Of a stretch of 64,000 bases of DNA, positions 16,350 to 31,250 are shown piece by piece (positions within the stretch are counted from its first letter, which is position 1; each line of letters starts with the position of its first letter). Source of the DNA: Candidatus Sulfopaludibacter sp. SbA3. GTDB lineage: Bacteria > Acidobacteriota > Terriglobia > Bryobacterales > Bryobacteraceae. The notes under the pieces are model-generated. The model had not been told where the DNA came from, did no database searches, and worked only from the letters and a program-made list of their open reading frames with translations. The position numbers were made by a program, and so were the translations under genes. The stretch spans positions 1-64,000 of the forward strand of contig CAMDED010000022.1 in assembly GCA_945893365.1 (NCBI GenBank), given 5' to 3'.

Positions 16350-16396
16350 TTTGGCCAAGTTTCGTGATAACCTTGATTTTCGGGGGTATGGTCTAT

Positions 16397-17185
16397 ATGA
16401 CAAAAAGTATAAAGGTCGGAATTGTCGCTCTCTTCTCCCCGGTGTTGGCTGCGAATTTATGCGCCTCCTCAATCGGAATCGTTAACCCCTCATTCGAAAG
16501 CCTTGGCAACCTGAATAACGGCTACCTGACTTGCGCTTCGATAGCTGTCTTTCAGGCGAAGGGATGCCGGACGGATGAAAATCCGGGCACGGGGTGGATC
16601 GGATCGTTTGCGGGCGGCGCCGATAACACTATGCAATTTGGTGTTACGAGTCCCTACCTTACTGGCGACCTAAGCTTAACCGGCTTAGATCCATCCTATG
16701 TCACTGGTGTGAAGGATCCCGGTCCAAACGTCGCAGGTGGGAGCTACGGTTACGTTGCTTTGAGGGGGGCCGGGGCAACGCTCAACACCCAAGTTGATTT
16801 GACTCAGACGCTTACTGGGGTGTTCCTTGAGCTTAACTTGGACTACATCCTGAGAGTTTCTGTCGGGTATAGGGCGCAGGCCGCAACACCGACGGCGTAC
16901 TCAGTCATTCTCGGGACAACGACTGGAGGAGAGCTGGCTTCCAACTCGGTAGCTCTTACACCCGGTCAATGGACTGATGTAGCCGTGGTCTACTCTTCGG
17001 GGGCCAGTAACGCGCGTGCGGGTCAAACCCTGACGATCACCTTGCGCGGTCTCAGCACCGTTGAGACGGGTTTCGACAACGTCAGACTCGACGCCGCTGT
17101 TCCGGAGCCCGGCACCGTTTTCCTTCTCGGCGGTTCGCTCCTGGGTCTGTGGGCGTACCGAAGGAAGCGCGCCTCGAAAGTATAG
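16397..17185 (+). CDS. PEP-CTERM sorting-domain secreted protein
   Basis: A 262-residue exported protein. An N-terminal signal (TKSIKVGIVALFSPVLAANLCASS) is followed by a Gly/Thr-rich beta-sandwich that begins IVNPSFES, a carbohydrate-binding-like jelly-roll pattern. It ends with VPEPGTVFLLGGSLLGLWAYRRKR: the PEP motif, a hydrophobic span and a basic tail recognised by exosortase. It is probably anchored in, or released from, the envelope together with exopolysaccharide. The ATG at 16397 is favoured because GGGGG lies ten bases upstream; ATGs at 16388 and 16364 are alternatives. No exosortase is in this window. Confidence 0.85.
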   Translation: MTKSIKVGIVALFSPVLAANLCASSIGIVNPSFESLGNLNNGYLTCASIAVFQAKGCRTDENPGTGWIGSFAGGADNTMQFGVTSPYLTGDLSLTGLDPSYVTGVKDPGPNVAGGSYGYVALRGAGATLNTQVDLTQTLTGVFLELNLDYILRVSVGYRAQAATPTAYSVILGTTTGGELASNSVALTPGQWTDVAVVYSSGASNARAGQTLTITLRGLSTVETGFDNVRLDAAVPEPGTVFLLGGSLLGLWAYRRKRASKV

Positions 17186-18158: not shown

Positions 18159-21100
18159 GTGTCTCCCATCTCTCGAAATCGTCTCAATTTCGCGGCTCTT
18201 GGATCTCTCGCATTGTACTTTGCCGCCACCCCGGTAATCCTCGCTCAGGATGTCGGGCAAGGGGCTCCGAACGAATCCATCAGGCAGCGCTTCGTTAACG
18301 CTTACTTCCGCGGGAATTTTCAGCGCCTGGTTTCCTCGCCGAAGGGTGAAGTCAGGCGTCTCGGTTCCACCACAGGCTTGGTGCAGGAGTTCTCCGACGC
18401 CGACCCAACAAAGAACGCTACCTACGCCCTGATTCGCGCCAATTCGTCACCCGTCGTCGTCGAGGGCGTGAATGACGTGCTGCAAATGACCGCCGACATG
18501 TACCCCTTCTTCACGCAACAAGGGGTGAATACCGTCGGCTTCCCGACTAACGATACATCGCCCTGCGCCGCGCCCGCCGGCGCTTCCGGTTGCGGCTACC
18601 AATTCTTCGACAAGACCTACGTCCTCGTCGCCTACAGGTCGAACGGAGCCGCACAGGACTGCGCGATCAAGGATCCCTTCTATTCGAAATGGACCGCGGC
18701 CGGCGGGATCAACACGATCGGCGCCTGTATCGACGCTGAGCGCGCGGTCACCGGCCTTTCGAGCGTAACGGCGAACCAGCAAATCTACCTGAACGGCGCC
18801 ATCTACAGCGTCACGTCCGGCACGCAGACGGGGAGCGCCTTCACTGTTTCCGGAGCGATATACGCATTTTACGGAACAAATGGGGGGCACGAGGCTTTTC
18901 TCGGACTGCCCACGTCGGAGGAAACCAGTGTCGCGGACGGAAAAAGGCGTCAGGCGTTTCAGGGTGGCGCCGTCGAGTACGTTCCTGGGCCGTCACCGGC
19001 GCCCGCGGTGAAATATCCCGTGAGCTCGGTGTCGCTGAGCGGACAGGCGTCGGGCGGCGTCCTGCGCCTGAAACTCGGAGAAACGGCGAACATCGGCGCT
19101 CTGTTGTTCGCGCCGAACGGCACGACCTTGACCGATCGGCAGGTCAGTTGGACGACGACGAACGGCCGCGTGGCCACGGTTCAGCCGGGCGGCTTGACAG
19201 CGGTCGTCCGCGCGGAGGGTGGGGGGACGGCTCTGGTCGCGGCAAGTAGCGAGGGCAAGGTGAGCCCATCGCTGCAGGTCATCGTAACCGCGCCGTGTTG
19301 CCGGATCGGAGAAGGAGCGCCTTCATCCGCGATCGAACAATCCTTCCAGGACGCGGTCGTGCGAAATGGCCTCAACGTTCAATTACCCGCCGCGAATTCC
19401 GTGCGCCGCGCAGGCGCCGGCTACGTGCAGGACCTTCAGTCCGCCGGGGCTCCCACGGAGCGCTATCTTATCGCCAAAGCCGATAAGCTTTCCGCGGCCT
19501 TCGTCCTCAGTGGCGAGCTTCTGCGCCGGTACGATGAGTTGGGCGGACCGGCGGGGAGCCTCGGGCATCCGATCTCGGACGCCACTGCGGCCGGGAGGCA
19601 ACTTTTTGAAAACTCCGTAGCGCTGGCGGGGACGCCCGCGCGCGTTGTGTCCGGAGTGATTCTGGCAAAGTGGGCGAATTTGGGCTATGAAACCGGCGCC
19701 GCGGGCTTGCCCGTCGAGGAAGCGGCCGTTTTCCTGACGTTCAGCTCGACGCCGGGCCTTTCGCAGTCGTTCCGCAATGGCGTGGTGTTTGGAATCTCGG
19801 GTGGAGCGCGTTCAGGACAAGCCTATTTCGTCGCCGGTCCAATCCTCGCTCGCTATCGCGCTCTCGGGGGCGTCAGCGGCGCCTTTGGCGCTCCCGTGAG
19901 TGACGAGTTTGGCATGGAAGGACTACGCCGCCAGAATTTCGAGGGTGGTTACTTCGACTACGTCGCTGGCGCCGCCCTTGCGCAGGCTCACGAAAACGAG
20001 CGCAAACCATCGGTTGCTGCAACCCCTCGCGCGGCGGTGGCCGGTGGACGCGTCCGCGTAGCCGTAAGCGGATTCAGCCTGGGCGCGACCTTACGAGTCT
20101 CAGTGACGGGCCAACCCGATTTTGTCGTCAACACGGCTAACGGCGCCTATTCCTGGGAGTCCTACATTCCACCCAACGCAACCACGGCTTCCGTCACCGT
20201 GAGAGCCGCGGAGGTTGGCGGGTCCGCAACGGCTCAAGTCACCTACCAAATCAGGTCGGTGACCGATAGCCACCCTCGGTTGTCAAGGGTTAGGGGACAC
20301 GAGCAGGTAGGAACACCGGGCTCGCTGTTGCCAAGTCCGCTGCGCGTCCTTCTGCAAGACGACGCAGGTAACCCCATCGCGGGCGCTCAAGTGGTGTTCC
20401 GCGCCGTCTTTGGAACGCCGCTGGCTGCCTCCGCCGTGACGGACGGGAGCGGGCAGGCTGAAACCCTGTTTCGCCTTCCCTCGGATGAGAGAGCCACCTC
20501 GGTGTCTGCCGAATCCGCAGGGCAAGTCATCACGTTTAATGAGCGCTCGGTGGCGGCTTCTTTGCGCGATTTTCCCAGGCTGACACAGGCGGTGGACGGA
20601 ACGCTTGGAAACGGCTCCGCAAGCATCGCCCAAAAAGGCGCACTGCTCGCGGCCACGGCGTCCCTGCTCCGCTACCATCAGAATCGCGCAGAGTTACCCT
20701 CCCCCAATGGCCCCGCCGAAGTTTCGCAGTTGAACGATTATCTAAAGACGTTCTGCACGCTTGACCTGCAAGGCAACAGGCTCTGCGATGGTTTTCTGTC
20801 GAATCCCGCGACCTCCGGCGATCAAATTCTGAATCTATGGCGGGCCGGGGCTTATGCCGGCGGAACCGTCGACATCGCGGTGGAGAATCCATCGGAGGCT
20901 TCCATACGCGACCTGGTTTCGGCGGGAAGTCCTGTTTTGGTCATTTTGTCGCTCTCGCGGGACGGCGTGACGGCGGGTGGTCATGCAGTGGTGGCGATCG
21001 GGGTGGCGGGCGATGGCGGTCTGGTGATTCACGATCCGAATCCTGCTTTCGGCCGCCAAACGCTTGGTGAGTATTTGGGAGGCTTCACGACCGGGTCCAG

Positions 21101-22106
21101 GCAGTGGAGCGGCACGATTGAAAGCGCGCTAAGGCTATTACCTAGAGCGCCCGGCGCAACGGGTTTTCTGCTTTCCGCTCCCTCGCAGGCAGGCGGAACT
21201 CCTCCTGCGCTGTCGTCGAACGCCGGCGCCTGCGGCCAGCCCGTAATGATACAGGATTTGGCAGTTGCGAGCGGCGATGTCCCATCTGTCCCACCGCCTG
21301 TGTCGTTTTTGCTCTACTGTGACGGACTCCAACCTGCTTACCAACTGACGGGTACCGCAGGCTATCCTTTCAGAGTTACGGACCTTTCGGGCGGCGGCGC
21401 CAAACAAGATATACTGTCCATAGAATCAAAGACTTACCGTGTCTCAAGAACCGGGTCTCAGGTAGCCGTCACGGCCCTAGCCACCGCCTTTTCCGCGACC
21501 TCCGTGGTGAACGCGGCTACGTTTGGCACGGGAATTGCTCCAGGAGGGCTAATGGCGATTTTCGGATCGGGATTGGCGGGCGGCGGGACGAACACTTCCG
21601 TGGAGATGAATGGTATACCCGTTCGCATTGTCGCCACCACTCCGTTCCAGCTGAATGCGGAGGTTCCCGCGGATTTGGCCGCTGGTGCGTATTCATTGCG
21701 GATACGTTCGGCATTCGGCGCGGCTGAGCAGCAGGTGAGCGTGAGTGAATCGGCTCCCGGCATCTTCGTGATCGACAGTTCCGGCCGCGGAGCGGTTGTG
21801 AACCAGGATGGCAATATCAATTCGCCGGCAGCCGTGGCGAGGCGCGGCCAGACGGTGGTAATCTATGGGACGGGTTTTGGAGCGGTCAACCGGCAGGGTA
21901 ACCTCTCGGTGGCTCGTAACCGCGTGACCGCGCTGCTGAACGGGCAGGAGCTCCCGGTGTCGTTTGCCGGTCTCGCGCCTGGGTTTATCGGGCTCTATCA
22001 GGTGAATCTGGCGCTGCCGCAGACCGTGCCTCCGGGCCTCGATTTGCCGCTCGCCCTCCGTCAGTCCGGGGTGGACAGCAATACCGTCCCGGTGTCGGTT
22101 CAGTGA
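18159..22106 (+). CDS. Giant secreted LGFP/C39-like/TIGR03437 protein
   Basis: A 1315-residue exported protein starting at GTG with a signal peptide ending near VILAQ. LGFP-type repeats, each with a G-x-L/F-G-x-P core, occur about residues 230-280 and 385-620. A bacterial Ig-like domain is near 287-375 and a Big_1-like domain near 719-800. Residues 804-985 resemble a papain-like C39 peptidase: His942 (GGHAVVAIG) and Asp959 (HDPNP) are present, but the expected cysteine after QKG is Ala828, so it is probably inactive. The end (1116-1315, VVNAATFGTGIAPGGLMAIFG onward) is a TIGR03437 domain. LGFP repeats are linked to cell-surface association in other bacteria. I infer a surface adhesin or binding protein. 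Confidence 0.82.
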   Translation: MSPISRNRLNFAALGSLALYFAATPVILAQDVGQGAPNESIRQRFVNAYFRGNFQRLVSSPKGEVRRLGSTTGLVQEFSDADPTKNATYALIRANSSPVVVEGVNDVLQMTADMYPFFTQQGVNTVGFPTNDTSPCAAPAGASGCGYQFFDKTYVLVAYRSNGAAQDCAIKDPFYSKWTAAGGINTIGACIDAERAVTGLSSVTANQQIYLNGAIYSVTSGTQTGSAFTVSGAIYAFYGTNGGHEAFLGLPTSEETSVADGKRRQAFQGGAVEYVPGPSPAPAVKYPVSSVSLSGQASGGVLRLKLGETANIGALLFAPNGTTLTDRQVSWTTTNGRVATVQPGGLTAVVRAEGGGTALVAASSEGKVSPSLQVIVTAPCCRIGEGAPSSAIEQSFQDAVVRNGLNVQLPAANSVRRAGAGYVQDLQSAGAPTERYLIAKADKLSAAFVLSGELLRRYDELGGPAGSLGHPISDATAAGRQLFENSVALAGTPARVVSGVILAKWANLGYETGAAGLPVEEAAVFLTFSSTPGLSQSFRNGVVFGISGGARSGQAYFVAGPILARYRALGGVSGAFGAPVSDEFGMEGLRRQNFEGGYFDYVAGAALAQAHENERKPSVAATPRAAVAGGRVRVAVSGFSLGATLRVSVTGQPDFVVNTANGAYSWESYIPPNATTASVTVRAAEVGGSATAQVTYQIRSVTDSHPRLSRVRGHEQVGTPGSLLPSPLRVLLQDDAGNPIAGAQVVFRAVFGTPLAASAVTDGSGQAETLFRLPSDERATSVSAESAGQVITFNERSVAASLRDFPRLTQAVDGTLGNGSASIAQKGALLAATASLLRYHQNRAELPSPNGPAEVSQLNDYLKTFCTLDLQGNRLCDGFLSNPATSGDQILNLWRAGAYAGGTVDIAVENPSEASIRDLVSAGSPVLVILSLSRDGVTAGGHAVVAIGVAGDGGLVIHDPNPAFGRQTLGEYLGGFTTGSRQWSGTIESALRLLPRAPGATGFLLSAPSQAGGTPPALSSNAGACGQPVMIQDLAVASGDVPSVPPPVSFLLYCDGLQPAYQLTGTAGYPFRVTDLSGGGAKQDILSIESKTYRVSRTGSQVAVTALATAFSATSVVNAATFGTGIAPGGLMAIFGSGLAGGGTNTSVEMNGIPVRIVATTPFQLNAEVPADLAAGAYSLRIRSAFGAAEQQVSVSESAPGIFVIDSSGRGAVVNQDGNINSPAAVARRGQTVVIYGTGFGAVNRQGNLSVARNRVTALLNGQELPVSFAGLAPGFIGLYQVNLALPQTVPPGLDLPLALRQSGVDSNTVPVSVQ

Positions 22107-22113
22107 AAAAACA

Positions 22114-22142
22114 TTGACGTGGCCGGGATTTGATGTTGTAAT
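22114..22142 (+). promoter_or_regulatory. Sigma70-type promoter of leader/571-aa gene
   Basis: TTGACG at 22114-22119 and TGTAAT at 22137-22142 are separated by exactly 17 bases, the optimal spacing. Each box matches consensus at five of six positions. It begins eight bases after the previous stop codon. Transcription would start near 22149, giving a 5' leader of about 370 bases. Confidence 0.65.
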
Positions 22143-22148
22143 AGGAGA

Positions 22149-22517
22149 TTCAAGCCTGAGGTAGTACGTCTCGGGTGGGTGCGACCTAAAGAGGTCGACT
22201 TGACATGGGTTCGTTCCATGAGCTATCGATTATCTGAACCGCGCCGCTGGCGCGACATCGGACTCGCGCTGTTGTGCGTGCAATTTTGCGCTTCACTCCC
22301 GCGAGCATGAAGAGCAGTTGAGGCAGGAACGAGAAGTTAAAACACAAGAACTCGCAGGTGCAGTTTGCAACGCCCCGCCGGTCCACTTGAGGACGGCGGG
22401 CTCTCCGCCCGACACGGAGAAGTTCCCTGGTATACAAGGTTTTCGAAGTAGTCTGAGGCTCAGGTGAAAGAGAACTTCGACCGATTTCAATTTTCGCAAA
22501 TTAACAAGGAGAAACAA
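22149..22517 (+). ncRNA. Candidate structured 5' leader RNA
   Basis: The stretch between the promoter and the next start codon is unusually rich in hairpins. CCTGAG/CTCGGG is near 22154-22175. CGACCT-AAAG-AGGTCG is at 22182-22197 and CATGG/CCATG at 22204-22220. CGCGCC-GCT-GGCGCG is at 22240-22254. A nine-pair hairpin with one bulged base is at 22375-22399, and its 3' arm GGCGG can also pair with CCGCC at 22405-22409. It matches no riboswitch class I can recognise. It may be a long regulatory leader or a separate small RNA. GC-rich DNA makes some hairpins expected by chance. Confidence 0.4.
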
Positions 22518-24233
22518 ATGGCAGCTTTTCGCAAAGTGTTTTTAGCGCTAGTTGTGGTTGCCCTCGCGGCAGCGACGGCCAGTGCGCAGGTAATTTGTAC
22601 CGGTGGCGCCTCACCTAAGATCGTACGCACGGAAGGTCTTACGGAACTGCTGGGCGACATCGTCCTCAGCTGTAACATTACCGCCGGTACCCCGGCTTCG
22701 TCGTTCAACATTCAGGTCACCCTGAACACGAACGCCACGTCCCCGTTCGGCGGCACTGGAGATCCGCAGGTTGATGCGGTGCTCGTGGTGACTCAAGCTC
22801 TCGCGACCCCTATACGCGGCATCAAGGCTTCGGATACGACGGTCTCGTTCCTCAGTGTGCCGATCGCGGCATCCCCGCTAGCCTCGACCGCGACGATCCA
22901 GATCAGTAACCTTCGCGGTAACGCAAGTGGCCTTGCTGTCGGTTCGGCGATCACCGCCTTCGTGTCCTCAAGCGGTGGCGGTGCCACTACTCTGACCATA
23001 TCCAATAATACGTTCACGGTCGGCTCGACGAGCAGCAGCGTCACCTTCCGGGCTCGGAATACCATCAATGATACGACGCAGGCCTTCACTGGTTTGCAGT
23101 GTGCCGCTACCAACGGCGACCTGTTTAGCGACGCAACGAAGACTAACCAAACGCTGAGCGGGAACCTTCAATTCCAGGAACAGCAGCAGTCTGCGTTCAA
23201 GACGGCGGCTGATGAAGTGGGTAACTATACCGCCGCCGGCTTCGGTGCCGTAACGAACGGTACGCGTTTGAAAGCCACCTTTAACAATGTTCCCGCGAAC
23301 GTGGCTCTGTTTGTCACAACCCGCGACGTTGAGAACGGCACCACGGCGTTTGCCGCGGCCGCGAAGGCAGTTCTTGTCGGCGCGGATTCGACAGGTGCGG
23401 GAGGAACGGCCACAGCTTACACTGAAGTCGATGCCGGTTGCTTGGCGCTCACCGCGGCTTGCGGTCCGGCGGGCAGCGGCGGTGACGCCAGGGTCTCCTC
23501 GACGGTCCTCCGGCGCTATAGAATCCAGCAGTTGACTGTCAGCAATGGCAGTGCGACGGCTGTGTGGGAAATCGTCTCCACCAATGCGAATGCGGCCGAG
23601 GACATCAGCTTCGGTTTCGCTACGGCGTTCAAGGCTGGTCAGCCGGCTTTGGGCACGGCGACGGTTAATGGCGGCTTGGCGCCGATAAGCACCGTCAAGT
23701 TGCCTGCCGTTCTTAGCACTCCTCCGGCAGGACAGCCGGTTCCGCGGTTCGCCGATACGTCTTCGGCGACCAACGTCTTCACCCTCAACCCCTGCGCCAC
23801 GAACCTGCTGTTCCCGTACGTGACGAATCAGGCTGGCTTCGACACCGGTTTGGTGGTCTCGAATACATCGAGCGATCCTTTCGGCACGTCCGGCCAGGCA
23901 GGTACCTGCACGCTGAACTACTACGGCGCAACCACGGGTGGCGGCGCGGCTCCTGCCGCGGTGACCACGCAGTCCGTGCCGGCCGGTGGCCAGCTGGTTT
24001 GGACACTGTCTTCGGGTGGCAATCTGGGCGCAACGGCAACACCGGGCTTCCAGGGCTACGTGATCGCACAGTGCCAGTTCCGCTTCGGTCACGGCTTCGC
24101 GTTTGTTAGCGATGTCGGGGCGCGTAATCTGGCCATGGGTTACCTCCCGCTAGTTATGGACGGGGATGGTATAGCCACAAGTCTTGGCGCGAAACGCGAC
24201 ACCAAGACCAATGGTGAGATCTTCGGGAACTAA
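22518..24233 (+). CDS. Secreted protein of unknown function
   Basis: A 571-residue exported protein. The signal peptide (AAFRKVFLALVVVALAAATASAQ) ends at about residue 24. The rest is Ala/Thr/Gly/Ser-rich beta-strand sequence with few charged residues, like surface or extracellular structural proteins. The last 140 residues (NLLFPYVTNQAGFDTGLVVSNTS.., then FAFVSDVGARNLAMGYLPLVM) look like a compact domain of a type I recall from Solibacter proteins, with no assigned function. The ATG at 22518 follows AAGGAG at good spacing. A long structured leader precedes it and a strong intrinsic terminator follows, so it is a one-gene transcript and possibly highly expressed. Confidence 0.78.
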   Translation: MAAFRKVFLALVVVALAAATASAQVICTGGASPKIVRTEGLTELLGDIVLSCNITAGTPASSFNIQVTLNTNATSPFGGTGDPQVDAVLVVTQALATPIRGIKASDTTVSFLSVPIAASPLASTATIQISNLRGNASGLAVGSAITAFVSSSGGGATTLTISNNTFTVGSTSSSVTFRARNTINDTTQAFTGLQCAATNGDLFSDATKTNQTLSGNLQFQEQQQSAFKTAADEVGNYTAAGFGAVTNGTRLKATFNNVPANVALFVTTRDVENGTTAFAAAAKAVLVGADSTGAGGTATAYTEVDAGCLALTAACGPAGSGGDARVSSTVLRRYRIQQLTVSNGSATAVWEIVSTNANAAEDISFGFATAFKAGQPALGTATVNGGLAPISTVKLPAVLSTPPAGQPVPRFADTSSATNVFTLNPCATNLLFPYVTNQAGFDTGLVVSNTSSDPFGTSGQAGTCTLNYYGATTGGGAAPAAVTTQSVPAGGQLVWTLSSGGNLGATATPGFQGYVIAQCQFRFGHGFAFVSDVGARNLAMGYLPLVMDGDGIATSLGAKRDTKTNGEIFGN

Positions 24234-24252: not shown

Positions 24253-24287
24253 ATGGAGGGGAGAGCAATCTCCCCTCCATTTTTTTT
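24253..24287 (+). terminator. Strong intrinsic terminator
   Basis: ATGGAGGGGAGA and TCTCCCCTCCAT form a perfect 12-base-pair stem with a GCAA tetraloop, followed at once by eight T residues (24280-24287). It lies 20 bases after the stop of the 571-residue secreted protein gene. This is the clearest Rho-independent terminator in the window. Confidence 0.96.
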
Positions 24288-24393: not shown

Positions 24394-27300
24394 ATGAAAA
24401 CAAAAACGCTTGCACTGTGGTCTCTTCTCTGCCTCTTTGCATATACACCAGCGTCGGAAGCGCGAAATGTCTTTGTTCTCCCCGGAGGTTCCGGCGCCGC
24501 CATCACGACTTTCACGGGCGAACCCTTCGTCGCGTCCGGAACCATCGCCGCCGCACCCACGACCTTTCGAGTGTTGGCGCATCCCGCGGGCACGAAGTAC
24601 TATGTGCTTTCGAAGGCCGACACAGACACTGTTTTGGTCATGGACGCGACCCTCGGCAGCGTCCTGCGCCGGATCAGTATTACAGGCGGAGCAACCGCCG
24701 CTACTTTGACGCCGGACGGGCGCCGTCTCGTAGTAGTCGGATCCGTCGTTTCAGTCATAGACACGACGACCGACCTGCGCTTGACCTTCCCCACGATCGA
24801 CGTCGGTATCAATCCGATCGACGTCGCGGTGAGTCACGATTCCAGCCGCGCCTTCATCCTTAGCAGCGCATCGAATCGCGTGACTACCATCGATTTGTTC
24901 GGCAACGTACAGCTTGGGCTCACAGTGGCAGTCCCAGGCGTCTCCACCGGCATCACCCGGGGTCCAAACGATTTGCTTTATGTGAGCGCGCAAAACAGAA
25001 TCTTCGAAATCGATGGACGGACGCAAAGCATCCGAAATGAGATCCCCTTAAACGAGAGCCCGGGCAAAATAGCCTTTACGCCAGACGGCACGCGGGGAAT
25101 AGCCCTCAACTCAACATCGGTGACAGGCTCGGTTCTAGTTATATTCGATACGGCCACCCGTACCGTGACACGGCTTACCAATGCGCAACTGCCCTCCGTG
25201 ACTCTAGAGAAGCTTGTCGTGGCTGGAAACAACCGTGCGCTGGGCATCTCGGCGGGATCCCGGACCCTTTACGACATCGGACTGAATCCGACTAGTGGCT
25301 CCCTCGCGACCCTTGGGGTGATCGGCGGCTTTGTCTCGGTTGCCGATGTCGCGGTGTCGGGCGAGCTCCCGGCCACTTCAAACGGTGTCGCGAAGTTCGC
25401 ATACATCGCAACCGCCTCGACCTTGACGAGAGTCGATCTGACGACGAACGCCCCGAGCGGGCAATTTGCCTTGACCCCGCCACCAGGCGGCGTCGCTTTC
25501 GCCGGGCCCGCCTCCACTGCGGCGCCGTCCGGTTTCGCCCAATTTAACGCCAATCAAACGTTCACCGTGCTGCAAGGCCCTTTGCCTTTGGCGCTCCGCG
25601 TGTTGGACGCGAATAACCTGCCGCTAATCAATGTGCCGGTGTCCTTCAGTTCGTCCTCACCCGGCCTCGTCATCCAAGGACAGACCGCGACTACGAACGG
25701 AGAGGGCATTGCTTCCACCACAGTCCTCGTGTCATCCACCACCGGTTCGGGAATCGTCACGGCGACCATTGGCGCCGGAAATTTGATTGCAACTTTCTCG
25801 CTCTTGATAGCCGGAGGGGGCGCCGCGGGAGTCCCTACCACTATCGAGAGCGTGGGCGGTAACGGCCAAGTGGTGCTTCAGAACGGCGGCAAGACCAACT
25901 TTCCGATCAGCATTCTACTCCGGGACGGCAATGGGACCCCTGTCCCGAACAGTCCGGTTACCTGGACACTGCAGGGTACCGGCACCGGAACACTGTCCGA
26001 CGCCCAGCTCCAGACCGACGCAAATGGCGTCGCGACCACCTACTTCATAGGGGGCGCGCTGACCGGTGGCGTTTCATCGTCGCAGCGCGCCATTATCGTT
26101 GGAAACGCCACCTTGGGCAAGACTTTGTACGTCACAACCAGCAGCACCTTGCCCGCTGTCACCTTCCTGGCGCCGGCGGGCGACAACCCGAGAATCGTCG
26201 CGCAGGCCGGACAGACGATCAGCGGCGCCGTTCAGATCCGCCTGAACCAGTTTGTGGGCAACGTAGGAGTGCGAGCAACGGCCAATGTCGCTCTTGCCGC
26301 CACGGAACCATCTGCCAACTGCACCGCCGAGGCGGGAACTGTATTAAGCGACTTTGCCGGAATCGCAATCTGCGACCTGAAAATCGGGCCTCGCACCGGC
26401 GAGACTGATCTGACCGTGAACGTAGGCGGGTACTCCGAGACGACGATACCCCTGGTCGTGAATCCAGGTCCTCCAGGCGCGTTGCGCGTCATTCAGGGCA
26501 GCAATCAGGCTGGCTTTACGGGTCAACCACTGCCTTTGGCTTTGGTTGCGGAAGTCACGGACGCTGTCGGGAACCCCTTAACCGGAGCGGCCGTCGAATG
26601 GGAGGTTGTGACGCCAGGGACTATCACCCTGTCGAACGTATTTAACCGGAGCAGCCAGGGAGGGAGGGTTTCCGCGCTGGCTACACTGGGGAACACAGGC
26701 GGTACCTATCAGGTGCGCGTCAAAATCGGGACGACGGCAACCGCGACCTTCAATCTAACCGTCAACATTCCTTTCGCCACACTCGTGAAGGGCGGCGGCG
26801 ATTCACAATCGGCGGCACTCAATCAACCGTTCGCGTCTCCCGTAACCGTTCAGGTCAGTGACAGTACCGGTCGCCCCGTCCCGGGCGTACCGGTGGCATT
26901 CAACGTGGCCTCCGGATCGGGGTCCGTCGTGACCAGTCCATCCGTTTCCGATGCCCAGGGCCGTGCATCAACTCTGGTCAGAGCCGGCGCCACCGCCGGG
27001 CCGCTGACCATCATTGCTACATCCGGCTCTCTTTCAGTGACGTTTGATCTGACCGTTCTACCGCCCGGACCGAGTCTCACGGCATCAAGTTTCGCCAGCG
27101 CAACAAGCGGAGCAGCGGGCGTCACACCGGGAGGACTCGTCACCATCACCGGTCGCGGCCTCGCCACCGACCTCCAAGGCACGGTCAACGCAAATCCATT
27201 GCTGGGTCCGGGCTTCTCAACCCTCGCCGGCCTTAGTGTAAGCTTCAATGGAACGCCCGCACCCATATTTTCCATAACCAACCTCAACGGTGTGGAATCC

Positions 27301-27798
27301 GCGATCGTGCAGGCGCCTTTCGAACTCCAACCGGGCTTCGTGTCCGTAAGAGTCGACTCGGGCGGCACGCCTCTGATCATCGACAATGTGCCTGTGCTTG
27401 CCTATCAACCGGGAATTCTGGAAACAGCCAGCGGCGGCCGCAAGTACGGAGTTGTCCGGAAAGCCGACCGCAGCTTCGCGTCGCCGTCGAACCCGGTTTT
27501 TAGGGGCGAGGTGATACGCGTGTTCGCGACGGGTCTAGGCCAAGTGACGCCTGCCGCCGGGACTGGACGAGCCGGCGTACCCGGCCAACTCGTGAGTGCG
27601 TCACTCATAGTGGGTGTGGACAACGCAGGCGCCAGCATCGTTAACGCGCAACTGGCCGTCAATCTGATTGGAGTCTACCAAGTGGACGTTGAAGTTCCGC
27701 AGGACGCATCTGCGGGCGTGAAGAACCTTGTCATCGCGGTTACTTCGCCGGACGGCAGCGTCGCGTTTTCACAGAGTACGCTTATCGCCATACAATAG
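24394..27798 (+). CDS. Secreted propeller/Ig-like/TIGR03437 protein, copy 1
   Basis: An 1134-residue exported protein. After a signal peptide (KTKTLALWSLLCLFAYTPASEA) comes a YVTN/YncE-type beta-propeller (about residues 25-370) with repeated blades such as TPDGRRLVVVGSVVSVIDTTTDLR and FTPDGTRGIALNS. Several Big_1-like immunoglobulin domains follow (about 385-890; for example LPLALRVLDANNLPLINVPVSFSSSSPG). The end is a TIGR03437 domain (from about 898, GVTPGGLVTITGRGLA). The ATG at 24394 has GAGG nearby and begins the signal peptide. It probably acts outside the cell or on its surface. The next gene is a close paralogue 59 bases downstream. Confidence 0.86.
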   Translation: MKTKTLALWSLLCLFAYTPASEARNVFVLPGGSGAAITTFTGEPFVASGTIAAAPTTFRVLAHPAGTKYYVLSKADTDTVLVMDATLGSVLRRISITGGATAATLTPDGRRLVVVGSVVSVIDTTTDLRLTFPTIDVGINPIDVAVSHDSSRAFILSSASNRVTTIDLFGNVQLGLTVAVPGVSTGITRGPNDLLYVSAQNRIFEIDGRTQSIRNEIPLNESPGKIAFTPDGTRGIALNSTSVTGSVLVIFDTATRTVTRLTNAQLPSVTLEKLVVAGNNRALGISAGSRTLYDIGLNPTSGSLATLGVIGGFVSVADVAVSGELPATSNGVAKFAYIATASTLTRVDLTTNAPSGQFALTPPPGGVAFAGPASTAAPSGFAQFNANQTFTVLQGPLPLALRVLDANNLPLINVPVSFSSSSPGLVIQGQTATTNGEGIASTTVLVSSTTGSGIVTATIGAGNLIATFSLLIAGGGAAGVPTTIESVGGNGQVVLQNGGKTNFPISILLRDGNGTPVPNSPVTWTLQGTGTGTLSDAQLQTDANGVATTYFIGGALTGGVSSSQRAIIVGNATLGKTLYVTTSSTLPAVTFLAPAGDNPRIVAQAGQTISGAVQIRLNQFVGNVGVRATANVALAATEPSANCTAEAGTVLSDFAGIAICDLKIGPRTGETDLTVNVGGYSETTIPLVVNPGPPGALRVIQGSNQAGFTGQPLPLALVAEVTDAVGNPLTGAAVEWEVVTPGTITLSNVFNRSSQGGRVSALATLGNTGGTYQVRVKIGTTATATFNLTVNIPFATLVKGGGDSQSAALNQPFASPVTVQVSDSTGRPVPGVPVAFNVASGSGSVVTSPSVSDAQGRASTLVRAGATAGPLTIIATSGSLSVTFDLTVLPPGPSLTASSFASATSGAAGVTPGGLVTITGRGLATDLQGTVNANPLLGPGFSTLAGLSVSFNGTPAPIFSITNLNGVESAIVQAPFELQPGFVSVRVDSGGTPLIIDNVPVLAYQPGILETASGGRKYGVVRKADRSFASPSNPVFRGEVIRVFATGLGQVTPAAGTGRAGVPGQLVSASLIVGVDNAGASIVNAQLAVNLIGVYQVDVEVPQDASAGVKNLVIAVTSPDGSVAFSQSTLIAIQ

Positions 27799-27857
27799 TG
27801 CGCCGCCGGACCCGCTGCTGCCCGTGGCAGTGGATCCGGTCGCCTTACTCGCATCCC

Positions 27858-30800
27858 ATGATCAAGACTCGTATCACCGTTGCCTTTCTCATTACCGCGG
27901 CGATGATGCACGGGCGCAATGTGCTTGTGCTTCCGAACGGCGCGGCGCGGCAACCCGTTGCCGTCTTCAAGGGCGATTCCCTCACTGCGGCTGGAACGTT
28001 CGTAGCCTCGTCGTCCGCATTCACCGCGTTCTCGAATCCAGCCGGCGCCAAGTACTACGTTGTGGGGCGCGAGGCAACGGAGACGCTAGTCGTAGTCGAT
28101 GGGACGTTTTCCAACAGGCTGAAGAGTTTCGATGTTGCCGGCGGCGCCCGAGCCGCGGCAATCACACCCGACGGACGCCGCATCCTTATACTCGGAAGCG
28201 GTCTTCACATCTTCGACACCGCCGAGGATCGGGAAATCGCCGTCGGCGTTCCTCAGGACTTGGGGGAGGATCCGGGCGAGCTTTCCGTGAGCCAGGACTC
28301 GCGCCGCGCCTACGTACTCAGCATCGCTTCGCGGCGCCTCACGGTAATCGATCTGGCCACCAACACAGTAGCAGGTAGCCTCCCGATACTCGGCACAACG
28401 ACTGGCGTAACCGTCGGCCCGAACGACCTTGTTTACGTTTCGGCACAGAATCGGATTTATGAGATTGACGGGCGCGCAGTCGCGTTGCGCGGAGAGATTC
28501 CGCTCAACGAGTTGCCAGGCAAAGTCGGCTTCACTCCGGATGGACGGGGGGTTGTGTCGAACAGGACGACGCTCACCGGCTCTGTCTTTGCGCTCTTCAA
28601 CCCGACAAATCGTACTGTCGGAAGGTTACCGAGCTTTTTTCTTCCGGGCGTGACGCTGGACCGAATGCATTCGGCCGGCAATAATCGTGTCTTTGCCGTG
28701 ACCGGCGGAAGTATTTACGAGATTACGCTAAACCCGGTGACCGCCGCGCTCTCGTCATTTACGTCCATCGGCGGTCAGGGCGCAGTCAACGATCTCGCAT
28801 TCTCCAATGAGATATCGACGCTGCCGAATGGCACGGTCTCCCGCTACCTCTACATCGCGCAAGGGCGCTCGCTGAACCGGATCGATCTCAGTCTGAATCA
28901 GTTGAGCGGCGCCGCTCAACTCGGATACGAAGGAGCTAGGCTAGCCTACGCGGGCCCAGTATCGACAAATCCAGTGGCTGGATTTCTAACTTACAACGTG
29001 AAGCAGACAGTGTCGCCAGGGGGAACATCCATTCCGCTTGTGGTGCGTCTGTACGACTCGGATGGCCAGCCCGTGTACAACGCTCCTGTTGTGTACACCG
29101 CCTCAGCCGCCGGTGTGACAATCCAAACGCCTTCCGCGACGACGAATGCCGACGGCTTCGCCCAAACCGTGCTGACCGTGCCGGCGGCTCCGGGATCGTT
29201 CACGGTGACAGCCGGCTTCGGGACGGGATTGACAACGCGATTCACGGTTAACATCGGAAATCCGGCCCAGGGAACCCCCTCCGTCATTGAAGTGGTTTCC
29301 GGAAACGGCCAATTGGCCGGCGCCGGCAGCGGAGCGCCTGAAGCGCTACGGGTAGCGGTTCGGGACGCGTTTGAGAACCCAATACCGGGCGCCGAAGTGC
29401 GGTGGAGCATGATCGGTCCCGGCCGGTTGAGCGCAGAGTCGGTTCTCACCGACGCCAACGGACAAGCCGCGGTGACATTCGCCGCGCCGGAGAATATCAA
29501 CCCGCTTTTTTTTATTGCGGGGTCGGTCAAGGCAACCGTCGCCGGCATCTCCGCCGATCTTTACGTAACCACCTTTTTCGTTTCGAATGTCCTACCGAAT
29601 ATTACGATCGTGACTCCAAACAACAACCCCCGAGGAATTACCGGGGTCGCCGGCCAAACTTTGACCGGCGCGCTCCAGGTGCGTGTAACCAGCCCGCTTG
29701 GACAGGCAATGCCGAACGTAAGCCTCCGCGCGGGTGCGGCTACCGACGCCACAAGTCAACTCTCCGCCGGCTGCGCGAACGAAAACGGAACTGCCCTCAC
29801 CGATAGCACCGGTCTTGCGTCGTGCGATCTTAAGCTCGGCGGACTCATCGGCAACAGCACGCTCAACGCCGCCGTCGGAAATGTATTCCCGGTCGCACCG
29901 GTAGGCCTGACCGTAACGGCTGGGGCGCCCACGCTCATTCGTATCCAGCGAGGAAATCAGCAATCGGGGCAGACCGGCCAGACTTTGGCCTCCGCGCTAC
30001 TGGCGACGGTTACCGATGAGTTCGGCAATGTCCTGCCCGGCACGCAGGTGCAATGGGAAGTCGTGACTCCAAACTCCATCACCCTGACGCAAGTTGTGAG
30101 TACGGCAAATTCCCAGGGCCAAGTCTCGGCGCTGCCGACGTTGGGGCCCTTCGCGGGAACCTATCAGGTCAAAGTAAGTACGGGCGGCGTCTCGGCCGTC
30201 TTCAGCCTGACCGTTACGACGACGTCCGCACAGATGACGAAGGTGTCCGGAGACAACCAAACGGCCTCGCAGAATCAACCCTTCCTGCAACCTCTGCGAG
30301 TCCGTGTGATTGATGGCACGGGCCGTTCGGTACCTGGCGTGCCAGTCGCATTTGTAGTCTCGACCGGACGCGCGACGCTTGAATCCACGTCGGGAACCAC
30401 GGACGCGGACGGCAACGCTTCGACTACAGTCCGCGCGGGCGATGCTTCAGGCACCGTGACCATCGCGGCCTTCGCCCAGAATCTCTCCACTGCTTTCACG
30501 CTGACCGTGCGCGTGCGGGGGCCGGTGATCGTGGCGAGCGGCATCGTGAACGCGGCGAGTCTTCAGCCCGGCGTAACGCCCGGCGCCATCGTCACCATTC
30601 GCGGCACGGACATCGCCACCGGAATCGATGGTACTGTTTCTACTAACCCCGGCTCGCCGCTGCCCACGATTCTCGCCGGCGTTACCGTACGATTCGGATT
30701 CATCTTCGCGCCCATTCTCTCGATTTCAAACGTGAATGGGCAGGAGTCGATCACGGTGCAGGCCCCGTTTGAACTACAGCCCGGCGTGACTCCCGTCACG

Positions 30801-31250
30801 ATCGACGTCAGCGGCTTTTCAACGACGGTAAGCACAGCCGTGCTGCCGTATCAACCGGGCGTCTTTGAAACCGTTGCTTCGGACGGAAAACGCTACGCTA
30901 CCTTGTTTCGCTCCGACGGCACAGCCGTTACGCCCGGGAATCCCGCCCGGCGCGGAGAAACGCTCCGGTTGCACGCAACGGGACTTGGACAGGTTTCGCC
31001 CTCGACGGGCACGAACCGGCCCGGCGTGCCCGGCCAGAGGGTGATCGCCCAACTCATCGTGGGCGTGAACGATGAGGGAGTTGTCCTGGTGAACGCGGAA
31101 TACGCGCCACGCAATATCGGGCTTTATTACGTGGACTTTCAGGTTCCCGAGCAAACCGCTTCCGGCGCCGAAATACACTTGGCGCTGGCGCTCGTGCAAC
31201 CCGACGGAAGCGCGATTTTTGCCAATACCGCGCGAATTCCGATCGAGTAG
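27858..31250 (+). CDS. Secreted propeller/Ig-like/TIGR03437 protein, copy 2
   Basis: This 1130-residue protein has the same domain order and nearly the same length as the gene before it. It has a short signal (IKTRITVAFLITAAMMHG), a YVTN-type propeller (opening RNVLVLPNGAARQPVAVFKG, against RNVFVLPGGSGAAITTFTG in copy 1), Big_1-like domains and a TIGR03437 end from about residue 894 (LQPGVTPGAIVTIRGTDIA). The shared phrases along the whole length (GPNDLVYVSAQNRIYEIDGR, LGQVSPSTGTNRPGVPGQ) show a tandem duplication that has since diverged. The ATG at 27858 begins the signal. Only 59 bases separate the two genes, so they are probably cotranscribed. Confidence 0.86.
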   Translation: MIKTRITVAFLITAAMMHGRNVLVLPNGAARQPVAVFKGDSLTAAGTFVASSSAFTAFSNPAGAKYYVVGREATETLVVVDGTFSNRLKSFDVAGGARAAAITPDGRRILILGSGLHIFDTAEDREIAVGVPQDLGEDPGELSVSQDSRRAYVLSIASRRLTVIDLATNTVAGSLPILGTTTGVTVGPNDLVYVSAQNRIYEIDGRAVALRGEIPLNELPGKVGFTPDGRGVVSNRTTLTGSVFALFNPTNRTVGRLPSFFLPGVTLDRMHSAGNNRVFAVTGGSIYEITLNPVTAALSSFTSIGGQGAVNDLAFSNEISTLPNGTVSRYLYIAQGRSLNRIDLSLNQLSGAAQLGYEGARLAYAGPVSTNPVAGFLTYNVKQTVSPGGTSIPLVVRLYDSDGQPVYNAPVVYTASAAGVTIQTPSATTNADGFAQTVLTVPAAPGSFTVTAGFGTGLTTRFTVNIGNPAQGTPSVIEVVSGNGQLAGAGSGAPEALRVAVRDAFENPIPGAEVRWSMIGPGRLSAESVLTDANGQAAVTFAAPENINPLFFIAGSVKATVAGISADLYVTTFFVSNVLPNITIVTPNNNPRGITGVAGQTLTGALQVRVTSPLGQAMPNVSLRAGAATDATSQLSAGCANENGTALTDSTGLASCDLKLGGLIGNSTLNAAVGNVFPVAPVGLTVTAGAPTLIRIQRGNQQSGQTGQTLASALLATVTDEFGNVLPGTQVQWEVVTPNSITLTQVVSTANSQGQVSALPTLGPFAGTYQVKVSTGGVSAVFSLTVTTTSAQMTKVSGDNQTASQNQPFLQPLRVRVIDGTGRSVPGVPVAFVVSTGRATLESTSGTTDADGNASTTVRAGDASGTVTIAAFAQNLSTAFTLTVRVRGPVIVASGIVNAASLQPGVTPGAIVTIRGTDIATGIDGTVSTNPGSPLPTILAGVTVRFGFIFAPILSISNVNGQESITVQAPFELQPGVTPVTIDVSGFSTTVSTAVLPYQPGVFETVASDGKRYATLFRSDGTAVTPGNPARRGETLRLHATGLGQVSPSTGTNRPGVPGQRVIAQLIVGVNDEGVVLVNAEYAPRNIGLYYVDFQVPEQTASGAEIHLALALVQPDGSAIFANTARIPIE

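Follow-up and report, generated by a model that had tools for sequence, protein, structure and literature searches.

The DNA between two neighbouring genes of the window, i.e., the whole stretch of 64,000 nucleotides that was analysed, is best explained, at a probability of roughly 0.55, as encoding a conserved and structured 5' leader RNA of the Bryobacteraceae that controls the translation or the mRNA stability of an abundant, adhesin-like surface protein. Sequence comparison supports the promoter motifs, the leader, covarying helices, a constraint at the level of the RNA and the specificity for one gene, and we infer from these that the leader is transcribed, that the protein is abundant and at which level control is exerted. 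Across species the predicted leader lies between a promoter motif and the start codon of the same gene.

Organisation of the Locus

The features of the locus, all on the forward strand (+), are as follows.

22114-22142 (+): distal promoter motif, TTGACG (22114-22119), a 17-nt spacer and TGTAAT (22137-22142), with the TG of an extended -10 at 22134-22135; found by the family pattern
22200-22230 (+): proximal promoter motif, TTGACA (22200-22205), an 18-nt spacer and TATCGAT (22224-22230), with a predicted transcription start at ~22236; found by motif score
22238-22263 (+): 26-nt insertion, ambiguous in its placement by a few bases, containing the hairpin 22240-22254; from the alignment with the same-genus genomes G001 and G002, which lack it
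22298-22358 (+): helix P2, CCcGCGAG (22298-22305) with CUCGCaGG (22351-22358), around the family motif CCCGCGAGCACAG; from covariation
22374-22400 (+): hairpin P3, CCCGCC-g-GUCC / GGAC-GGCGGG; from covariation
22402-22420 (+): hairpin P4, UCUCCG-CCCGACA-CGGAGA; stem and loop hardly vary
22455-22468 (+): block 1, GAGGCTCAGGTGAA (family form GAGGCTCAGGTTGAA); conserved sequence
22474-22487 (+): block 2, ACTTCGACCGATTT (family form ACTTC[CG]AYCRATTC); from alignments A1 and A2
22506-22535 (+): block 3, Shine-Dalgarno sequence AAGGAG, start codon and codons 2-6; constrained at the level of the RNA
22518-24233 (+): gene of the secreted all-beta protein of 571 residues served by the leader; start codon at 22518
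24258-24285 (+): terminator-like hairpin with a T-rich tail (site 24258-24273), 3' of this gene; from a terminator scan and the letters

The leader is preceded by a gene at 18159-22106, the product of which contains LGFP repeats and a Solibacter C-terminal domain (Soli_cterm) and, alongside these, a below-threshold match to a C39-like peptidase. Seven bases lie between the stop codon of this gene and the TTGACG. The single gene of a secreted protein predicted behind the leader was confirmed in its start codon and in its length of 571 residues (the corresponding entry in the list of open reading frames is longer than 22518-24233 and includes the start at 22518), and the terminator predicted to follow it is present as the terminator-like site with its T-rich tail. 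Directly downstream lie two large paralogues side by side (24394-27795 and 27798-31247), with Big_1 and Soli_cterm domains and weak beta-propeller matches. On the other side of the leader, the protein encoded at 16364-17185 ends in VPEPGTVFLLGGSLLGLWAYRRKR, which we take to resemble a PEP-CTERM sorting signal.

Judged by eye, the 571-residue protein appears to carry a typical signal peptide at its N-terminus. Its structure model (pLDDT 84.9, pTM 0.81) is all beta except for the signal peptide and short helices. In fold comparisons, residues 25-422 of the model are similar to the C-terminal region of a streptococcal antigen I/II-type surface protein (Z 9.7 and rmsd 5.2 over 263 residues), pilins and integrin modules are matched by single domains, and the Foldseek matches have TM-scores of ~0.2. 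What such comparisons return are common beta-sandwich arrangements; the modelled matches would fit a surface or adhesin-like protein as a shared arrangement that does not by itself indicate a function, and Z-values below 10 and TM-scores of ~0.2 are weak evidence for the role of the protein. Pfam and NCBIfam have no match to the window protein and each gave one weak match in one member among 51 members of its family, and a comparison with PDB sequences yielded none at E ≤ 1.

Conservation and Distribution of the Leader

In a blastn comparison of the leader with 41 genomes, full-length matches were obtained in two genomes of the same genus (83-84%), and other genera matched in the 3' part. Three blocks, in a few of the leaders in weakened form, are common to 27 leaders upstream of homologues of the protein, which were chosen by a translated start motif: GAGGCTCAGGTTGAA, ACTTC[CG]AYCRATTC and CACAAGGAGAAGGAAATGGCAGATTTTCGC, the last being the ribosome-binding site and start. 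R1, a sequence-only model of this 3' part that spans blocks 1 and 2, the ribosome-binding site and the first codons, was derived from 26 of these leaders, L065 being too short. R1 matches 101 of 121 genomes at E ≤ 0.01 and 189 of 237 Bryobacteraceae genomes at E ≤ 0.001, and it is found in 128 of 148 good genomes and 64 of 76 genera of this family, while a sample covering the phylum gave 5 matches in 297, three of them in Bryobacteraceae and two of them weak. Among the 189 genomes, 177 have one R1 place and 12 have two (G004, G005, G013, G047, G078, G442, G456, G486, G500, G523 and G526, plus L058 of G051 with places at 1901 and 3933); some of the second places may be a single copy, broken up or present twice at the ends of contigs. 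When named genomes were scanned with a pattern, 53 stretches came up, and 50 of them have block matches at E ≤ 1e-11; L201 and L235 have no block match and L208 reaches 15 bits. Most of the 50 matching records are named Bryobacteraceae, Bryobacterales, Bryobacter, Solibacter, Terriglobia, Acidobacteria or similar, and it is on such names that the assignment of the family to the Bryobacteraceae is based. The records L236 (Flammeovirgaceae) and L238 (Acidimicrobiia) also bear leader and gene and are probably misnamed or mixed metagenome bins.

From 117 profile hits, a set of 99 sites was obtained after six hits lacking a start readable by the pattern were left out and repeats were merged. At 95 of these 99 sites, block 1 has a mean pairwise identity of 0.88 over 13 nt, a value inflated by locating the sites through their likeness to the consensus, compared with 0.26, equal to random, in the adjacent 26 nt upstream. 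The spacers around blocks 1 and 2 vary in length, and RNAalifold predicted no pair in the region of blocks 1-3. Conservation extends into the coding sequence, where synonymous codons are used unevenly (counted at 98 of the 99 sites, with one of the two L058 sites omitted): GCA encodes 46 of the 50 alanines at codon 2 and 9% of the alanines elsewhere in the genes, TTT encodes 82 of the 91 phenylalanines at codon 4 (17% elsewhere), and GAT encodes 67 of the 68 aspartates within the first codons (41% elsewhere). Because low structure near start codons is a general trend, this codon bias shows selection on the RNA and not a particular mechanism. In these alignments the 3' domain is thus conserved as sequence, without conserved pairing, through the ribosome-binding site to codon 6. 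A candidate hairpin between block 1 and block 2 (GGUUGAA with UUCGACC) fits only the leaders of the window's group, where it is strong, and was dropped: over 92 sites the true partners gave -5.15 kcal/mol versus -5.64 kcal/mol for shuffled partners and were worse in 200 of 200 shuffles.

Homologues of the 571-residue protein occur in 50 of 61 related genomes, and the protein after the leader belongs to one family at 96 of the 99 sites by a family profile that was built from 51 of the sequences it was tested on; with the window protein alone as the query, 94 of the 99 site proteins are found. The three exceptions to the profile are L187 (6 residues at a contig end), L142 (151 residues, no match) and L183 (a match of 16 bits).

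Promoter Motifs and Leader Length

Compared with shuffled sequences, which control for chance and not for the fact that both patterns were written after inspection by eye, the proximal family form CTTGACW-N16..19-TATSAAT (N17/18 in the family form) scores at least 11 in 69 of 98 sites versus 1 of 98 (one short site was omitted), and the distal form TTGAC-N15..18-TGnTnnAnT, in which the base before the last T is limited to A, C or T, occurs in 55 of 83 leaders compared with 0 of 1660 shuffled segments. Leaders are here the 84 of the 98 sites with a promoter score of at least 10.5, and 83 of them have enough upstream sequence for the distal pattern. The distal motif lies 30-135 nt (median 93 nt) upstream of the proximal -35 and is present in both same-genus genomes; the proximal TTGACA/TATCGAT is the top-scoring promoter site of the window leader. 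A plain consensus promoter scanner listed neither of the two motifs and reported one site, inside a coding sequence, versus 0.7 expected. The TTGACG-17-TGTAAT promoter of the original prediction is present and, in the comparison of leaders, strong, but unremarkable for a plain consensus scan. Both motifs are conserved across genera. Measured from the proximal motif, the 84 leaders have a median length of ~260 nt (range 180-358), the one of the window ~282 nt; this second motif would allow a leader of ~282 nt besides the one of ~369 nt that starts from the distal motif.

Covarying Helices in the 5' Domain

The leaders split into two groups, 30 of the 84, including the window, with a 5' domain of P2, P3 and P4, and 54 others. 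After RNAalifold had given 10 pairs of P3 and P4, 27 pairs were drawn by hand on an alignment of 28 of the 30 P4-group leaders (A3; L176 and L096 omitted). In A3, 83.8% of the pair cells are paired, compared with 36-44% when the partners are slid, 18 of the 27 pairs show double-sided change, and none of 500 shuffles reaches any of five measures. P4 hardly varies, and therefore its invariance neither supports nor opposes pairing. A covariance model of the P2-P4 structure (R2) finds the core at 58 places in 57 of the 237 Bryobacteraceae genomes. In 24 held-out copies, whose alignment was fitted to R2 and so favours the structure, 81.6% of the pair cells are paired (36-43% slid), double-sided changes, which slides and shuffles do not reproduce, occur in 19 of the 27 pairs and in 99 cells, the covariation score is 0.383 versus at most 0.087 slid, and each measure is reached by 0 or 1 of 500 shuffles. 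As 14 of the 24 copies come from one genus (g54) absent from A3, and others share genera with A3, these changes count sequences and not events. The pairing of P2 and P3 is kept by compensatory changes. The leaders upstream of homologues of the 571-residue protein, whose alignment the original prediction had proposed as a check, are accordingly conserved with compensatory changes, and a lack of conservation or covariation was not borne out.

Within the other group, 44 of the 54 leaders contain the motif CCCGCGAGCAC with at most three mismatches, and 41 of these form alignment A4 (L103, L143 and L172 omitted). They have a hairpin GCGGCAUUCA / UGAAUCCCGC upstream of GAGCACA, for which 86.7% of the cells are paired versus at most 49% slid; covariation in these 41 sequences was not above that of shuffles. 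Since P2-P4 is found in 57 of 237 genomes and the 5' hairpin of the other group lacks covariation above shuffles, the leader structure is not uniform over the Bryobacteraceae. The motif CCCGCGAGCACAG is common to both groups (A3 and A4), with its partner downstream in one of them (P2) and upstream in the other; such a change of partner might reflect switching between two folds, or the motif might be a site of recognition.

Folding Energy and Search for a Switch

The folding energy of the whole leader is not below that of shuffles (z -0.20), and the same holds for 22236-22517 of the window (z -0.27) and for related leaders, of which every second one was taken for the energy and accessibility tests (mean z -0.33 for 15 and -0.64 for 27; 4 of 42 below -2). 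As the leader folds no better than shuffled sequence, hairpins spotted by eye are no evidence alone. Complementary arms exist for all four hairpins named in the original prediction, but three of them are not conserved structure: in the two same-genus genomes the arms of 22182-22197 do not complement each other, 22240-22254 lies inside the 26-nt insertion missing from both of them, and 22204-22220, although unchanged in them, runs across the -35 and the spacer of the proximal promoter motif. The arms near 22375-22409, on the other hand, are conserved and correspond to P3 and the first half of P4.

A terminator scan of the window leader found none; T5 runs occur in 27 and T6 runs in 7 of the 84 leaders. 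Upstream open reading frames, judged by length only, are not beyond chance, the longest ATG-started one having on average 27 codons versus 29.1 in shuffles (84 leaders). Together, the lack of a terminator in the window leader and of upstream reading frames longer than in shuffles argue against attenuation. The Shine-Dalgarno sequence is unpaired with an average probability of 0.47 over the 84 leaders, and its accessibility in 42 leaders is 0.46 versus 0.49 in shuffled ones, so that these values establish neither an enhanced access nor a masking such as that in an RNA thermometer. P4 carries in its 3' strand the same GGAGA as the ribosome-binding site; alternative pairing between the Shine-Dalgarno sequence and P4 has a mean probability of 0.016 and a highest one of 0.231 in 30 leaders. 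With no terminator in the window leader, no upstream reading frame longer than in shuffles and no consistent masking of the Shine-Dalgarno sequence, these results speak against the usual attenuators and switches.

Comparison With Known RNAs

Rfam release 15 gave only a tRNA in the window at the gathering threshold, no match at E ≤ 5 in the leader region (22050-22560), and none at the gathering threshold in 12 related loci. The predicted unlikeness of the leader to any known riboswitch therefore held in a check that included Acido-1 and Acido-Lenti-1, and the missing Rfam match, the occurrence in 189 of 237 genomes and the compensatory changes, which extend to held-out copies, agree with the prediction of an undescribed acidobacterial leader RNA. 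Acido-1 (RF01686) and Acido-Lenti-1 (RF01687) are, like the leader, structured RNA candidates of Acidobacteria; neither has an Rfam match in the leader or in the 12 related loci, and Table 1 of PMC2864571 gives both as not cis-regulatory. The same table describes Solibacter-1 as "RNA ?", not cis-regulatory, with one species and no Rfam number (Weinberg et al., 2010; PMC2864571). Solibacter-1 is likewise an RNA candidate, from Solibacter usitatus, and may conceivably be the same RNA as the leader, although the latter is seen by comparison of many genera. A leader with one copy per genome would be an unlikely product of a one-species search such as the one that gave Solibacter-1. Solibacter usitatus presumably belongs to the same order as the host of the leader. 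A literature search, which had most subscription journals outside its reach, found no paper on the leader.

Genes of S-layer and other abundant surface proteins have long 5' leaders, strong or tandem promoters and a conserved ribosome-binding region. By analogy, the window leader may be likened to these, as it serves one gene with a long leader, strong or tandem promoters and a conserved ribosome-binding region; set beside them, it has covarying helices of its own and sequence blocks that are family-wide. With riboswitches in general it shares covarying helices and an invariant hairpin upstream of the start codon, whereas no Rfam class was matched.

Proposed Role and Alternative Explanations

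Control of a surface protein is favoured because a folded domain and a conserved region for the landing of the ribosome, without conserved pairing, serve one protein family. The leader would act in cis on ribosome loading and on the mRNA lifetime of one presumably abundant, adhesin-like protein of the cell surface; its folded 5' domain might protect the 5' end or bind a regulator, and the ribosome, an RNA-binding protein or a small RNA might land on the conserved 3' segment. It is unlikely, though worth considering ahead of other alternatives, that the 3' blocks bind a small RNA or an RNA-binding protein acting in trans, in feedback or stress control, and that the 5' helices do no more than make the message stable: the sequence of blocks 1 and 2 is conserved between variable spacers and without a pair in RNAalifold, but this conservation could equally serve the ribosome or a putative long-range pairing, e.g., of GAGC with GCUC. 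We hold it for rather unlikely that the leader represents a new class of signal-sensing RNA, in which the P2/P3 scaffold presents P4 to a ligand, a protein or a small RNA and so switches the synthesis of the adhesin. A binder that opens or holds P4 would then free or block the strand opposing the Shine-Dalgarno sequence and switch the main surface adhesin; as the unaided swap is rare at its mean probability of 0.016, a binder would be needed. Distinctly unlikely is a ligand-sensing leader of the riboswitch type, in which P2-P4 would bind a small molecule or an ion and alter access to the ribosome-binding site. Known aptamers combine covarying helices with an invariant hairpin and conserved single-stranded blocks, and the leader likewise has the covarying P2 and P3 beside a near-invariant P4 and conserved single-stranded blocks; against this, it serves a single protein family without a known link to a pathway, P2-P4 is confined to 57 of 237 genomes, the window leader has no terminator, and pairing of the Shine-Dalgarno sequence with P4 is not the default in the 30 leaders.

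An independent small RNA had been considered in the original prediction and is not favoured; that the leader yields one in addition to the mRNA we regard as very unlikely, since the ribosome-binding site and the first codons are part of the conserved element and no terminator precedes the gene in the window leader. One genome (G063) has a second copy on another contig (L250, G063:C74, 1019-1157) with a promoter and P2-P4, which keeps 23 of the 27 pairs and P4, has decayed blocks 1-3 and lacks a protein of the family in the surrounding 4.7 kb; it is either a partial duplication or an independent RNA, but 58 places in 57 genomes mean that it is the one extra copy. Highly improbable, and the least probable of all readings, is a conservation at the DNA level only, with tandem promoters, operators and a strong ribosome-binding site and an RNA structure that has no function. 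The conserved promoter motifs, the lack of conserved pairing in blocks 1-3, the ordinary folding energy and the hairpin of the larger group, without covariation above shuffles, would all fit such a reading, but compensatory changes in P2 and P3, including those in held-out copies, are not expected from DNA-binding sites.

Significance for the Bryobacteraceae

Many soils are rich in Acidobacteriota, a phylum whose regulatory RNAs have received little study. With its coordinates and predicted pairs, the leader offers a well-defined RNA for tests of post-transcriptional control in these organisms, and promoters and leader together might be put to use as an expression signal in the genetics of Bryobacteraceae. 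Its occurrence in 189 of 237 genomes, its position before one protein family at 96 of 99 sites and its absence from Rfam would mark this surface protein as important and as controlled.
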